This document shows, piece after piece, positions 1,297-26,188 of a stretch of DNA of 34,025 nucleotides. Source of the DNA: a virus; the IMG/VR virus record IMGVR_UViG_3300005253_000058, positions 1 to 34,025 of that record; one strand, given 5' to 3'. The position numbers and the translations under genes were made by a program. Position 1 is the first letter of the stretch. Every line of letters starts with the position of its first letter. The notes under the pieces were generated by a model. That model made no database searches, was not told where the DNA came from, and saw only the letters and a list, made by a program, of their open reading frames with translations.

Positions 1297-1644
1297 TTAA
1301 GCACGAACACCGCAAGTAGAACATTTCCACCCGCCAATTTTGATCGAAATAAAAATCCATACAGGCAGCCAAAGACCAAAAGTGAGTAAAGATAAAATTA
1401 AATGCAAAATGTGGTTTGTCCCTTTTCGCCAGACCAAAACATTTTTATCACACACTTTGCAGTAACCGCCTTTTTCTTGTTTTGCCATAATTACCTCCAA
1501 ATTTAATACTGTGCCGCTACACTGATTCGAGGGGAGCGGACAGCCTTCGATTAAAGAGTCCCGAAGGTCATCGCTGTCGGTGATATATCCACACCCAGAC
1601 GCGAAGCAAGTTAAACAAAATCCCGCAATTAGCATTTTAGACAT
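1297..1644 (-). CDS. Lipoprotein-like leader in frame with a LITAF-like zinc/membrane domain
   Basis: Read from the ATG at 1644 (AGGGG six bases upstream) this encodes 115 aa. Residues 1-18 look like a lipoprotein signal, with a hydrophobic stretch ending FASGC. From an internal in-frame Met (position 1488) the last 63 residues form a compact unit: CKVC, a hydrophobic stretch containing HILHLILSLLTFGLW, then CSTC. Two zinc knuckles flanking a membrane-associated helix resemble LITAF-like domains found in many small phage and prophage proteins. The internal Met has a stronger ribosome site than the first, so the 63-aa form may be the main product. No stop separates the two parts. Function unknown. 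Confidence 0.5.
   Translation of the reverse strand: MSKMLIAGFCLTCFASGCGYITDSDDLRDSLIEGCPLPSNQCSGTVLNLEVIMAKQEKGGYCKVCDKNVLVWRKGTNHILHLILSLLTFGLWLPVWIFISIKIGGWKCSTCGVRA
1486..1498 (-). promoter_or_regulatory. Internal ribosome binding site for the 63-aa LITAF-like form
   Basis: On the minus strand the sequence reads GGAGGTAATTATG: a five-base Shine-Dalgarno match, five bases of spacing and an ATG. It lies inside the longer reading frame of 1297-1644 and in the same frame. It is better than the site at 1644 and suggests an independent internal start. Confidence 0.6.
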
Positions 1645-1683
1645 TTTAGACCCCTTGTTATTGATAACGGGGTATATACCCAA

Positions 1684-7429: not shown

Positions 7430-8510
7430 CGTTGATTATTTCTATATGAATACCAAGCCGTGTAAAACTTTGCGCATGCTGGAATCGAAATTCGGCAACG
7501 CTGGATTCGTATTCTTTTGGAAATTGTTTATGTTACTTGCAGAGGAAGACGGCCACTTTTATGACGCTAGAGACCCCGTTAATATGGAGTTTCTGGCCCA
7601 GGAACTATCGTTACCTGTAGTTTCTGTCACAGAAATGCTCGACACCTTGAGTTTCTGGACCAAGCTGGACCAAGTCGCTTGGGGCCATAAGCTGATTTGG
7701 TACCAAGGGTTCGTTGACTCCCTCAAAGACGTCTACGAGAAACGCAAGCGCCCGTTACCCACTTTAAAGGATGCAATCGAAAAAATAGGGGGTTTCTGTC
7801 CCAGAAACTCAAACACTATTGGGGTTTCTGTGACAGAAACTACACCTGACACCGGGTTTCTGGCCCAGAAATCCACAGAAAGTACACAAAGTAGAGTAGA
7901 GGAGAGTAGAGAAGAGGAAATTAAATCAGAGGAAATTTTAAAGGGCACCACCACCACTGATACTGTAAGAGTCGAGACGCCACAAAAATCAGAAGCGGAG
8001 AAGAAAACGGACAGTGGTGGTGTGCTTGGAAAATTTAAAGAGTATTTTTTCGGAATCGTTGATCAATATTGTGACGTGCGAATAGCCAAAAAGAAAGTCA
8101 AGACCAATAAAGCTATTTATAGGAATTCGACTTGGCTGAAATTCCAGGAAGCTTGCGCGGTTGGAAAGGAAGCTGCCGAGGGTCAACTCGACTCAATGCG
8201 AAGTGAAATTCAGGACTATGAGATCGAACAAAAAGAGAAGGCCCTTGTAGACAAAAAGAAAGCCGAGATAGAAGCAGGCGTGCGAAGATCTGCAAATAAA
8301 AAAAGATTGGACTTCGAAGAAAAAAAGCGCCGAATTTTTGAATACAAAAAGGACTTAAAGGGCAAATACAAAGCCGATTTAATGAACGAAGCGAAAAGAA
8401 AATTACCGGCAATTGTTCTGAACGCAAAAAACGCGCTTTTCGTTACCAAAAGCATCAACGACGCAATCGACGAAATCATTTGGGAGAGAATCGGGGATGA
8501 CGACGATTAA
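7407..8510 (+). CDS. Replication initiator, Lin1244/DnaD-like N-terminal domain
   Basis: A 367-aa protein. Residues about 1-110 (ARPIKNSVDYFYMN, then LESKFGNAGFVFFWKL and FLAQEL) match the winged-helix N-terminal domain of Lin1244/Lin1753 (DUF4373) and DnaD-type phage replication proteins. Residues about 125-205 are a low-complexity linker; the C-terminal 160 residues are a long charged helical region. The linker and part of the N-domain encode the iterons described separately, as the lambda O gene carries its own origin. It probably binds those repeats and recruits host helicase. ATG at 7407 was chosen because AAAGG lies upstream. Confidence 0.75.
   Translation: MARPIKNSVDYFYMNTKPCKTLRMLESKFGNAGFVFFWKLFMLLAEEDGHFYDARDPVNMEFLAQELSLPVVSVTEMLDTLSFWTKLDQVAWGHKLIWYQGFVDSLKDVYEKRKRPLPTLKDAIEKIGGFCPRNSNTIGVSVTETTPDTGFLAQKSTESTQSRVEESREEEIKSEEILKGTTTTDTVRVETPQKSEAEKKTDSGGVLGKFKEYFFGIVDQYCDVRIAKKKVKTNKAIYRNSTWLKFQEACAVGKEAAEGQLDSMRSEIQDYEIEQKEKALVDKKKAEIEAGVRRSANKKRLDFEEKKRRIFEYKKDLKGKYKADLMNEAKRKLPAIVLNAKNALFVTKSINDAIDEIIWERIGDDDD
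7589..7872. repeat. Probable replication origin: two triplets of phased 17-bp iterons
   Basis: Consensus GTTTCTGnnnCAGAAAC, itself palindromic. Copies: 7589-7605 (one mismatch), 7620-7636 (last base differs), 7651-7667 (left half only), then 7792-7808 and 7824-7840 (both perfect) and 7856-7872 (last base differs). Start-to-start spacing is 31, 31 bp in the first triplet and 32, 32 bp in the second, about three helical turns, so all sites face one side of the DNA. A purine-rich, A-rich tract (7880-7960) follows and could be the unwinding region. The repeats fall in different codon contexts, so protein selection does not explain them. Confidence 0.8.
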
Positions 8511-12548: not shown

Positions 12549-12867
12549 TTTTGGGGTTCCAATTCGACGACTGCCGAAAATAACCGAATTCGATGATCCA
12601 AACATATTGTGGGACAAAGACAGTAATTATCTCGGGCGTATGTCGGACCGGATACCGGATGATCTCATTGATCGTTTTGTCTCGTGCATTAATGCCCTAG
12701 ACGGTATCCCCGACCCGGAAAAGACGGTTCCGAAGTTGGTAGATTGTATAAATGGGCTAGATGAACTATATGGAGCACTAATGGTAGAGGCGACGGAACT
12801 ATCTTCAGAAGTTCATAAAAAATTGATTGCTGCTCAAAAAGCACTGGAAGGGGTTTCGGGTGAGTAA
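12535..12867 (+). CDS. Hypothetical phage protein
   Basis: A 110-aa soluble protein with GGAAGGTGG upstream of its ATG. The N-terminal third is polar and Pro-rich; the rest is helical with an internal echo (FVSCINALDG and LVDCINGLDE). It ends in GVSGE, residues produced by the recurring junction sequence. Confidence 0.6.
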   Translation: MGKGDFGVPIRRLPKITEFDDPNILWDKDSNYLGRMSDRIPDDLIDRFVSCINALDGIPDPEKTVPKLVDCINGLDELYGALMVEATELSSEVHKKLIAAQKALEGVSGE

Positions 12868-13159
12868 AACAAACAGGACAATCAAAGATTTTGAGGAAGC
12901 GGTTATCAAAAAGAAAATTACCGAATGGTTTATTCGTAATTGCTTATTGTGTGAATATCCCTTGCGATTTGTGTTTTCTATCAAAGGTGAAAACGTATCA
13001 GTTGGGTTTGATGCTGGATGCGACTGCGTTCGTCAACGCGGGCCTATCCACAAAAGAAGAATGAAATCAGTCAAATACCAGTACGATTTACAATCGAATC
13101 GAAAAGTAATCGATGAATATGACCAATTTTGGGGATTTAACGGGGTTTCGGATGATTAA
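12860..13159 (+). CDS. Hypothetical cysteine-containing phage protein
   Basis: A 99-aa protein with a GTG start inside the junction repeat, overlapping the previous gene by eight bases. Residues about 30-60 contain CLLCEYPLRF and GFDAGCDC, possibly a metal site. It ends in GVSDD, again encoded by the junction repeat. Confidence 0.6.
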   Translation: MSKTNRTIKDFEEAVIKKKITEWFIRNCLLCEYPLRFVFSIKGENVSVGFDAGCDCVRQRGPIHKRRMKSVKYQYDLQSNRKVIDEYDQFWGFNGVSDD

Positions 13160-13475
13160 CAAATTACACATCACCTTAAATCGTCGCTGGTTCGAAATGT
13201 CACATCCAGGAGACGAGGATTTTTTGAAGGGGACGAAGCAGGAAGAATACCGGGAAATAAAGCCTTACTGGGAAACGAGACTGAAACCATTTATCGACAG
13301 CGGTGAGCCATTTATTGTGGTAGCGCGGAACGGATATCACAAGAATTCGCCAATGTTTCAACGAGCTTGCAAACGGGTTCGGATGGGACTACCAAAGCCA
13401 AGATGGACAGATCGGCCCGGCGTTGTTTGTTTTATTCTAGAATATGATCGGGATTATAAATGGGGTTTCGGATGA
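13152..13475 (+). CDS. ASCH-domain-like protein
   Basis: A 107-aa protein. HITLNRRWFEM near the start, EYREIKPYWETRL at about residues 32-44 and a terminal strand VVCFILEY match small phage ASCH-like proteins (K/E-E-Y-R-E-x-K-P-Y-W). ASCH domains are PUA-like folds that bind RNA or act on modified nucleosides. The substrate is unknown. The start lies in the junction repeat. Confidence 0.65.
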   Translation: MINKLHITLNRRWFEMSHPGDEDFLKGTKQEEYREIKPYWETRLKPFIDSGEPFIVVARNGYHKNSPMFQRACKRVRMGLPKPRWTDRPGVVCFILEYDRDYKWGFG

Positions 13476-13672
13476 TTGAAATTTTAGACTGGTTAAAATT
13501 ATTAATTTACCCGGCGTTTATTGCCTATTGTTGTTACTCTTGCGTTAAAGATTACTGGGAAGGGCGTGAAAGCAAAGCCCGTGCCCAAATAGCCGAAGGT
13601 GCGTTAAAACACGTCTTGCACGCGAAAACGAAAATAATATTTAATATTAAGGTTGGGGTTTCGGATGAATAA
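13472..13672 (+). CDS. 66-aa membrane-anchored protein
   Basis: Starts at the ATG in the junction repeat, overlapping the previous stop. A hydrophobic span at about 8-25 is followed by a charged helix; ends in GVSDE from the next junction repeat. Function unknown. Confidence 0.55.
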   Translation: MIEILDWLKLLIYPAFIAYCCYSCVKDYWEGRESKARAQIAEGALKHVLHAKTKIIFNIKVGVSDE

Positions 13673-13841
13673 AGAGATAATCTTTAAAGCTGCAAAAAAG
13701 AGAATAGATGCTCTGCAAGGACTTCTTTTGTGCTATCGAGTGGAAAAAAATCCAAGCATAAGATTGAGTAAAAATTTAGATACATCAAGAAAATGTTGGG
13801 ATAAAGTTTTAAAAGAATTTGAGGAGGTTTCTGATGAGTAA
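13665..13841 (+). CDS. 58-aa basic helical protein
   Basis: Starts within a perfect copy of the junction repeat and ends in EVSDE from the next, slightly degenerate, copy. Lys-rich and helical. No motif recognised. Confidence 0.55.
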   Translation: MNKEIIFKAAKKRIDALQGLLLCYRVEKNPSIRLSKNLDTSRKCWDKVLKEFEEVSDE

Positions 13842-14049
13842 ATTACTATTTTGCTTTCACAAATGGAATCGGGTGAAAGCTGTTTGTACCAATGTTAGCT
13901 ATAGTTACGTGGTTGTATGTCTCGAAAAGTGTAAAAAATGTGACAAAATTCGCACAACAAAAATCGGCAGTTTTCAGGCACCGAACGCCGCAAATATAAT
14001 TTGTGAAGCTGTAAATAAAATAATTTCAGACGGGGTTTCGGATGAGTAA
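13834..14049 (+). CDS. Small CxxC phage protein (HKW type)
   Basis: A 71-aa protein with FCFHKW (6-11) and CKKCDK (about 33-38). The HKW...CxxC pairing occurs in many tiny phage proteins and is probably a single zinc site. The start has GGAGG seven bases upstream. It ends in GVSDE from the last junction repeat. Confidence 0.6.
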   Translation: MSKLLFCFHKWNRVKAVCTNVSYSYVVVCLEKCKKCDKIRTTKIGSFQAPNAANIICEAVNKIISDGVSDE

Positions 14050-14230
14050 AATTATATTAGTGGTATTACTGGGGTTTGTCTTTATGCTAATTACTAATTT
14101 TGACTCTCCGAATGTGCAAAAATTAGGTATGACTATCAAGAAATGCTTGACGAGTAAAAGTATAAAAGCGTTATTATTTTTGTGGTTTTTTATACTAATT
14201 TCAATATTAATATACCCCCTTTATTTTTAG
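14042..14230 (+). CDS. 62-aa two-pass membrane protein
   Basis: Starts in the last junction repeat. Hydrophobic spans at about 4-18 and 43-60 flank a basic loop. Last gene of the long plus-strand operon; a strong hairpin follows 36 bases later. Function unknown. Confidence 0.55.
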   Translation: MSKIILVVLLGFVFMLITNFDSPNVQKLGMTIKKCLTSKSIKALLFLWFFILISILIYPLYF

Positions 14231-14489: not shown

Positions 14490-14684
14490 TTACCGAGGGA
14501 CAAGTTTTATTTTGAAGTTGCGCCGGACCCACTGCCAAAGTGAGACGGTAGAAGGGTATTCGATCTCACCATTCTTATTTTGAACCGGAAATTTTCTAGT
14601 GATCTTATTCCAACGCATATTACGGTTCAAACAGTTCTCGACCGTCTTTCCGTTGTAAGGGTATTTTTGTGGTCGTCCTCGCAT
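14490..14684 (-). CDS. AT-hook-like small basic protein, possible regulator
   Basis: A 64-aa basic protein. It begins MRGRPQKYP, an RGRP AT-hook-like core, and the rest is Lys/Arg/Asn-rich with VSLWQWVRRNFK near the end. The ATG at 14684 was chosen because the promoter's TATAAT ends only six bases upstream; the longer frame from 14711 would start upstream of that promoter. The transcript would then be leaderless. It faces the 110-aa gene across mirrored promoters, as a repressor facing the gene it controls would. A decayed copy lies at 15245-15327. Confidence 0.55.
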   Translation of the reverse strand: MRGRPQKYPYNGKTVENCLNRNMRWNKITRKFPVQNKNGEIEYPSTVSLWQWVRRNFKIKLVPR

Positions 14685-14690
14685 ATAAGC

Positions 14691-14762
14691 ATTATACACT
14701 AACATATTCATAAAATAAAACGGGATCTTTCAATTGGTATTATGTGAATATGTTAGTATAAT
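14691..14762. promoter_or_regulatory. Divergent promoters with mirrored boxes
   Basis: Rightward: TTGGTA (14734-14739), 17 bp, TATAAT (14757-14762). Leftward: TATAAT on the minus strand (14696-14691) with a poor -35. The 12 bases TGAATATGTTAG lie just before both -10 boxes in opposite orientations (one base before on the right, three before on the left), forming a large inverted repeat. One protein could therefore control both directions. Confidence 0.65.
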
Positions 14763-14787: not shown

Positions 14788-15120
14788 ATGAAAACAGAAA
14801 AAATAAGAGTTTGCTTAAATGAGGGATTGAACGAGTTAGAGGATGCTATTGATTATGAAATAGACCAAATTAATGTAAGAATTTTGAAATCTTATCATTA
14901 TGATATTTCAAGATTAATAATAAAAACGGAAAGCTGGAATTTAACCGCGATTAAAAATAACCTCAATAATATAATCGATGATTTAAAAGGCAACTCATTA
15001 ACAACTTTATTAGACGTAGTGCTCTCAGATTTCCAATATTGCTCAAAATTAATCCAACAGACGTTAAATGACCGCAAAGGTTTATCTTTGGATAATCAAG
15101 AAGATATTGGAAACGGATAA
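14788..15120 (+). CDS. 110-aa acidic protein of the accessory island
   Basis: A small acidic, helical protein (ELEDAIDYEIDQINVRIL near the start, many Asn/Ile/Leu/Asp) from markedly AT-rich DNA, unlike the neighbouring operons. It has its own promoter and an AAAGAAAGG ribosome site eight bases before the ATG; an in-frame GTG at 14779 is less likely. No family recognised. Size, charge, own promoter, facing a DNA-binding gene and lying 18 bases before CRISPR-like repeats make it a candidate anti-defence protein; this is inference from context only. Confidence 0.65.
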   Translation: MKTEKIRVCLNEGLNELEDAIDYEIDQINVRILKSYHYDISRLIIKTESWNLTAIKNNLNNIIDDLKGNSLTTLLDVVLSDFQYCSKLIQQTLNDRKGLSLDNQEDIGNG

Positions 15121-15138
15121 ATTTATTGGTATATTAGA

Positions 15139-15228
15139 GTTATTCCCCGTCAGGCGGGGATCAACCGATGTTTTTTACAATGTAAAGTTGTGGTAAATAT
15201 CTTTCCCTGCCTAAGCGGGGACTAACAC
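15139..15228 (+). CRISPR. Degenerate type I-E-like repeat-spacer-repeat unit (29-32-29)
   Basis: Repeat 1 (15139-15167) has CCCCG-TCAGG-CGGGG and ends ATCAACCG, one base from the E. coli type I-E 8-nt handle ATAAACCG. Repeat 2 (15200-15228) has CCCTGC-CTAA-GCGGGG, the exact I-E geometry of a 6-bp stem (one U-G wobble) and 4-nt loop, with handle ACTAACAC. The interval is exactly 32 nt, the standard I-E spacer length. No cas genes are present. It lies just downstream of, and probably in the same transcript as, the 110-aa gene. Possible roles are a phage mini-array using host Cas proteins or an RNA anti-CRISPR decoy. The 'spacer' contains the palindrome TTTACAATGTAAA, so a coincidental pair of hairpins is not excluded. 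Confidence 0.5.
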
Positions 15229-15244: not shown

Positions 15245-15327
15245 AACATTTTGAAATTGCGTCGAACCCACTGCCAAAGTCAGACGATTGGGGTATTTTT
15301 GTGGTAGTTACTTCTTTTAATAGGCAT
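15245..15327 (-). pseudogene. Decayed, internally deleted copy of the AT-hook-like gene
   Basis: On the minus strand an ATG at 15327 with AGGAAG upstream is followed by ACCACAAAAATACCC, matching the 5' part of the gene at 14684-14490. The sequence then jumps to CTTTGGCAGTGGGTTCGACG, matching its 3' part. About 110 bp of the middle are missing, the two pieces are in different frames, and a TGA stop interrupts the second. The intact ATG and ribosome site would give only 15 residues. Clear relic of a gene duplication flanking the 110-aa gene and the CRISPR-like unit. Confidence 0.75.
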
Positions 15328-26170: not shown

Positions 26171-26188
26171 CCCCCGCTTCGGCGGGGG
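26171..26188 (+). terminator. TTCG-tetraloop hairpin after the capsid gene
   Basis: CCCCCGC-TTCG-GCGGGGG is a perfect 7-bp GC stem with a stable UUCG loop. There is no U-run, so it more likely protects the capsid message 3' end or reduces read-through than fully terminates. Confidence 0.7.

Follow-up and report, generated by a model that had tools for sequence, protein, structure and literature searches.

A degenerate type I-E-like repeat-spacer-repeat unit carried by a virus, a candidate decoy RNA for host Cascade

Anatomy of the unit

What would a virus do with a single, worn copy of a CRISPR repeat-spacer-repeat, placed between its genes? The question is raised by an intergenic stretch (no listed ORF covers 15139-15228) of the viral record IMGVR_UViG_3300005253_000058, the whole of which, 34,025 nucleotides, is called here the window. 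The unit is made up of a repeat (R1), a spacer and a second repeat (R2) of 29, 32 and 29 nt, with the repeats in direct orientation and a period of exactly 61 nt. This is the layout of two degenerate repeats that a first-pass annotation, made from the sequence only, had described at this position, save that R1 is better taken as 28 nt (15140-15167) than as 29; positions 1-29 of the covariance model used below align to 15140-15167. The parts are as follows.

15139-15167, plus strand: R1, a type I-E-like repeat, GTTATTCCCCGTCAGGCGGGGATCAACCG (rank 1-2 with the I-E matrices, covariance model E=3e-6, fold)
15168-15199, plus strand: spacer or pseudo-spacer, 32 nt, self-complementary (z -2.61), with no known target in the target searches
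15200-15228, plus strand: R2, a degenerate type I-E-like repeat, TCTTTCCCTGCCTAAGCGGGGACTAACAC (best of ~68,000 positions with the partner matrix, E=0.017, sole positive offset)
15160-15220, plus strand: predicted Cas6e product of 61 nt, comprising an 8-nt handle, the spacer and a stem-loop (from the known cutting of Cas6e 3' of the stem, and the fold)

The R1 stem, as folded, has six pairs (CCCCGU/GCGGGG, 15145-15150 with 15154-15159) and a triloop, CAG. Its handle, ATCAACCG at 15160-15167 (AUCAACCG as crRNA), is intact and differs from that of E. coli, ATAAACCG, by one base, as had been noted before. R2 keeps a 6-bp stem (CCCUGC/GCGGGG, 15205-15210 with 15215-15220) and a 4-nt loop, CTAA (CUAA in RNA), and half of its handle is lost, decayed to ACTAACAC (also given as ACUAACAC). 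The stem changes in R1 and R2 are both C-to-U, each leaving a G.U pair; for R2 the first-pass annotation had already described the stem, the loop and this change correctly. Identity between the two repeats is 15/29 without gaps and 71% with gaps. To make one crRNA, the handle of the upstream repeat and the stem of the downstream repeat are required, and an intact R1 handle followed by an intact R2 stem is precisely this polarity. The context GGGG^A, that of the Cas6e cut site, occurs twice in the unit. In the full fold of the unit R1 pairs with R2, and the local hairpins are not formed.

Type I-E repeats or a plain hairpin

A repeat matrix was built from I-E units of other viral contigs and used to scan both strands of the window (~68,000 positions). 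R1 and R2 were the two best sites of all, both in direct orientation. The training loci had been chosen with the core of R1 only, so that for R2 the test is independent; R2 scored 20.6 in direct orientation against 5.5 at its best reverse-strand site, and R1 16.7 against 10.0. At +61 the pair score was 39.8, where 200 dinucleotide shuffles reached at most -6.1 and other real loci at most -8.1, and over offsets of 30-119 nt from R1, +61 alone gave a positive partner score. The covariance model, run over the whole window, found R1 with E=3e-6 and R2 with E=0.017. Set against what defines an I-E repeat (ca. 29 nt, a GC stem of 6-7 bp and an 8-nt 3' handle near ATNAACCG), R1 has every element and R2 the stem and half of the handle, and the 61-nt period in the same orientation is that of I-E arrays. 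The matrix ranks, the covariance model and the pair score at +61 strongly support the view, already advanced in the first-pass annotation, that the unit at 15139-15228 is a type I-E-like repeat-spacer-repeat. Elsewhere in the window, a perfect I-E-like stem-loop (CCCCGCCGAAGCGGGG) with no handle lies within an ORF at 26172-26187 (minus strand) and is probably due to chance.

The whole unit also folds as one hairpin (-44.9 kcal/mol, z -5.3), and the similarity between its arms is greater when inverted (score 29) than when direct (score 22); for these reasons it was first taken as an ordinary inverted repeat. On such an account the unit would not derive from CRISPR at all but would be an 88-nt inverted repeat (a terminator, an RNA-stability hairpin or a small palindromic element) with arms close enough to palindromes to pass for direct repeats, and its position just 3' of a stop codon would suit this. 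We consider this very improbable, and an inverted repeat, terminator or mobile palindrome was rejected, because the arms resemble I-E repeats in direct orientation, by the scores given above, because the period is exactly 61 nt, and because cross-spacer folding of the same kind is seen in ordinary I-E units (mean gain -7.0, sd 4.7 kcal/mol, the window unit reaching -12.9). Since ordinary palindromic I-E units cross-fold too, the long hairpin, strong as it is, is only a by-product. Besides, there is no U-run 3' of the unit and no second copy of it in the window; as for an intrinsic terminator of the upstream 110-aa gene, the unit lies outside the terminator-like sites and has no T-run after 15220.

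The spacer

No further copy of the spacer is present in the window. Its comparison with phage and plasmid sequences, a check proposed in the first-pass annotation, gave no significant match, and none was found in IMG/VR over the first 23 positions with the flipped-out bases ignored. The best phage match, in Bacillus phage KonjoTrouble (22/23 nt, E=0.08), is preceded by ATA, which is no clear I-E PAM. When the spacers of 13 similar viral units were pooled and compared with phages, there was one marginal match (E=0.06). The self-folding of the spacer (z -2.61) ranks second among 97 I-E spacers, only that of another viral unit (L012, see below) being higher. The notion that hairpin spacers are a trait of divergent viral units as a class was unsupported, with a mean z of -0.30 in 16 divergent units and of -0.14 in 80 near-identical ones. 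Self-folding is more in keeping with a decoy than with a guide, though this is a single spacer and the property is no class trait.

Genomic context, host and relatives

The first 121 bases of the 34,025-base record are the same as the last 121, as in a complete circular assembly. The gene order runs from a recombination/replication module through a small-gene block to RusA, terminase, portal, capsid and tail genes, and the unit sits, together with a 110-aa gene, in a low-GC stretch between gene blocks. The features around it are these.

14490-14711, minus strand: divergent 73-aa ORF, with a truncated second copy at about 15248-15310, also minus strand (shared LWQWVRRNFK frame)
14734-14762, plus strand: promoter-like site of the 110-aa gene, TTGGTA-N17-TATAAT (10/12, best in the stretch)
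14788-15120, plus strand: 110-aa gene, an orphan, predicted helical and of no family, possibly co-transcribed with the unit
15107-15135, plus strand: promoter-like site, TTGGAA-N17-TATATT, with extended -10 (9/12 consensus matches)

The stop codon of the 110-aa gene is 18 nt upstream of the unit, which makes co-transcription of the two plausible. Alternatively, transcription of a short RNA could begin at R1 from the promoter-like site at 15107-15135, which is 3 nt away, but such matches are frequent in this AT-rich stretch. The fold predicted for the 110-aa protein from its single sequence was too weak for a structure search (pLDDT 61.5), and IMG/VR yielded no homologues of the 131-aa, 110-aa and replication proteins. 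The copies of the 73-aa ORF share a 39-nt stretch (90%) and lie on either side of the 110-aa gene and the unit, which suggests that the cassette was duplicated or acquired. The divergent promoters that separate the 73-aa gene from the 110-aa gene are spanned by a 23-nt inverted repeat (87%, 14695-14760), probably an operator. The window has repeats of other kinds as well: a 21-nt palindromic repeat (GGGGTTTCTGTCCCAGAAACT) occurs five times at 7586-7873 within the replication-initiator gene (likely origin iterons), and a 23-nt motif, GGGGTTTCGGATGAGTAAA, occurs six times at 12847-14051, where successive small genes begin.

The search for cas genes was a search for Cas6e, and none is encoded in the 34,025-base record. 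The nearest cellular relatives of its TerL, 30-33% identical, belong to Brevibacillus, Paenibacillus and an Omnitrophota MAG. In the hunt for a host, Cas6e was absent from all five genomes searched, and the I-E repeat pattern was absent from 300 Bacilli genomes and from 14 genomes of the phylum of the Omnitrophota MAG. Neither was the unit present in any related phage locus, the relatives compared being distant or not covering the site, and the relatives identified by TerL and TerS do not have the accessory region in common with the window.

Similar units in other viral contigs

We scanned IMG/VR for the I-E core with the pattern CCCCG-N4..6-CGGGGATNAACCG and retrieved 81 stretches; a control pattern with a shuffled handle gave 6, so that most occurrences of the I-E motif in viral DNA are genuine. 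Many of these stretches depart from normal arrays and consist of just two divergent I-E hairpins, or a few. The distance between them is often exactly 61 nt, the last handle is often decayed, and Cas6e is absent from 17 of the 19 such records checked. Decay of the terminal repeat is common in host arrays too, and last-handle decay alone is therefore no phage-specific mark. Compared with the other viral I-E repeats collected, R1 is at best 83-88% identical.

A 27-kb viral contig, IMGVR_UViG_3300017963_000668, resembles the window in its divergent I-E triloop repeats with AT-rich spacers; it differs in having four units (L032, 2817-2900, and L007, 26-97) with irregular spacing (about 59, 61 and 48) and the handle ATGAACCG/A. 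In other arrangements an I-E-like hairpin (CCCCGGCCTCCGGGGATGAACCG) comes only tens of bases after the end of an I-C/I-B-like repeat (...GCGTGGATTGAAAT/C), namely in L012 (about 300-470), L081 (about 2060-2250) and L019 (about 1470-1660, minus strand), L012 and L019 having a second hairpin further on at +60/61. They may be repeat-mimic cassettes that combine several subtypes. L024 (4447-4618) has four divergent I-E-like triloop hairpins in a row with a 49-nt period, i.e., with spacers of ~20 nt, and the spacing is 50-53 nt in L017, L022, L030 and L038; units with such periods of 49-53 nt could act as decoys with short spacers, or else as guides of the CreR type.

Possible roles of the unit

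We believe, tentatively, that the unit is most likely a degenerate, phage-carried mimic of one I-E repeat-spacer-repeat that would serve as a Racr-like decoy loaded by host I-E Cascade. The unit would be transcribed during infection and host Cas6e would bind and cut at both conserved stems, releasing a crRNA-like RNA composed of AUCAACCG, the 32-nt pseudo-spacer and the stem-loop, which would then occupy host Cas6e and Cascade. As the spacer is self-folding and without known target, the loaded complex would be non-productive, that is, a decoy and by function an RNA anti-CRISPR. Several observations point in this direction: the identity and register of the repeats, the enrichment of the motif in viral contigs over the control, the existence of similar two-repeat units at +61, the absence of Cas6e from the window as from most of those records, the intact R1 handle and the pairing of both stems, and a spacer that folds on itself and for which no target was found. 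To these can be added that RacrIE1 and RacrIE2, which are I-E repeat mimics, inhibit a type I-E system (PMC10651486). Against a decoy are that no relative was found with the unit, the limited likeness of R1 to other viral I-E repeats, the pairing of R1 with R2 in the full fold (though ordinary I-E units tend to do likewise) and the fact that structured spacers are no class trait of such viral units.

Much the same picture might result if the phage had taken up part of an I-E array, from a host or from a phage, that no longer has a function and is drifting: the repeats are only 71% alike, half of the R2 handle is gone and no relative was found in which the unit is kept. However, in such a decaying remnant one would hardly expect both stems to be fully paired, the R1 handle to be intact and the register to be exactly 61 nt, and idle DNA is rarely kept by a 34-kb phage; we regard this explanation as unlikely. 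Nor do we expect, although the chance is not negligible, that the unit is a working guide, a one-spacer mini-array that would use host Cascade against a competing phage, a plasmid or a host gene. An R1 handle, a 32-nt spacer and an R2 stem suffice for one crRNA, and virus-borne mini-arrays in such a role have been published (PMC11656645; PMC6858448), but phages, plasmids, IMG/VR and the phage itself gave no target for this spacer (best E=0.08, with ATA in place of a clear I-E PAM), which is moreover self-folding and flanked by degenerate repeats. CreA typically has two degenerate repeats (PMC9458426), and a partly complementary crRNA-like RNA might lead host Cascade to repress the adjacent divergent promoters or the host cas operon. 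The sequence AAT-ATGTTNNT, with 6/7 seed bases, is indeed found at both divergent promoters (14698-14708, minus strand, and 14747-14757, plus strand), but it does not exceed chance significantly (5 occurrences in the window against 3.1 expected) and both promoter copies belong to one inverted repeat. With no linked Cas6e, and with the second repeat the more diverged where in CreTA it is the first (PMC9458426), a CreA/CreR-like regulator seems highly unlikely.

To go further along the lines of the decoy, some phage RNAs might form a class of their own that mimics an entire degenerate crRNA unit instead of a single repeat, with divergent, recombination-stable repeats and a self-folding pseudo-spacer that jams loaded Cascade. 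Here such an RNA might even control the pair of divergent promoters beside it by way of Cascade and thereby let phage genes sense host CRISPR activity. We offer this as a long shot.

Relation to known systems

Racr elements, or SRUs (Camara-Wilpert et al. 2023, PMC10651486; including RacrIE1 and RacrIE2), share several properties with the unit: they are phage-borne, intergenic and without linked Cas6e, with a well-kept I-E-like repeat that has stem and handle, and a promoter-like site just 5'. They consist of one repeat, whereas the unit has two and a spacer. SRUFinder drops candidates with a partial repeat nearby (none may lie within 100 bp), and R2 is 61 nt downstream of R1. The unit is not solitary and is therefore no standard Racr/SRU candidate, so that the solitary repeat units invoked in the first-pass annotation do not describe it. 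The Racr survey uses 90% identity to a known repeat, and R1 reaches at best 83-88% among the repeats collected here. Virus-borne mini-CRISPR arrays (PMC6858448; PMC11656645), which use host Cas proteins, also combine one spacer with two repeats in a virus. Their repeats, however, equal those of the host and most of their spacers match related viruses, while the repeats of the unit are far from near-identical (71% with gaps, 15/29 ungapped) and no target was found. CreA of CreTA (PMC9458426) has two degenerate repeats around one spacer-like sequence, as here, but it is cas-linked and matches the toxin promoter, whereas the record has no Cas6e and its promoter match is not significant; the polarity of decay is opposite as well. 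The unit is best called a new form of phage-borne CRISPR repeat mimicry.

The survey of repeat mimics retains solitary repeats and sets aside arrays and repeats with partial-repeat neighbours, and two-repeat degenerate units consequently fall between its filters. Whether such RNAs act as decoys or as guides is a question open to direct testing. Since similar units without Cas6e recur in IMG/VR, phage RNA-based interference with type I-E CRISPR may go beyond what has been catalogued.
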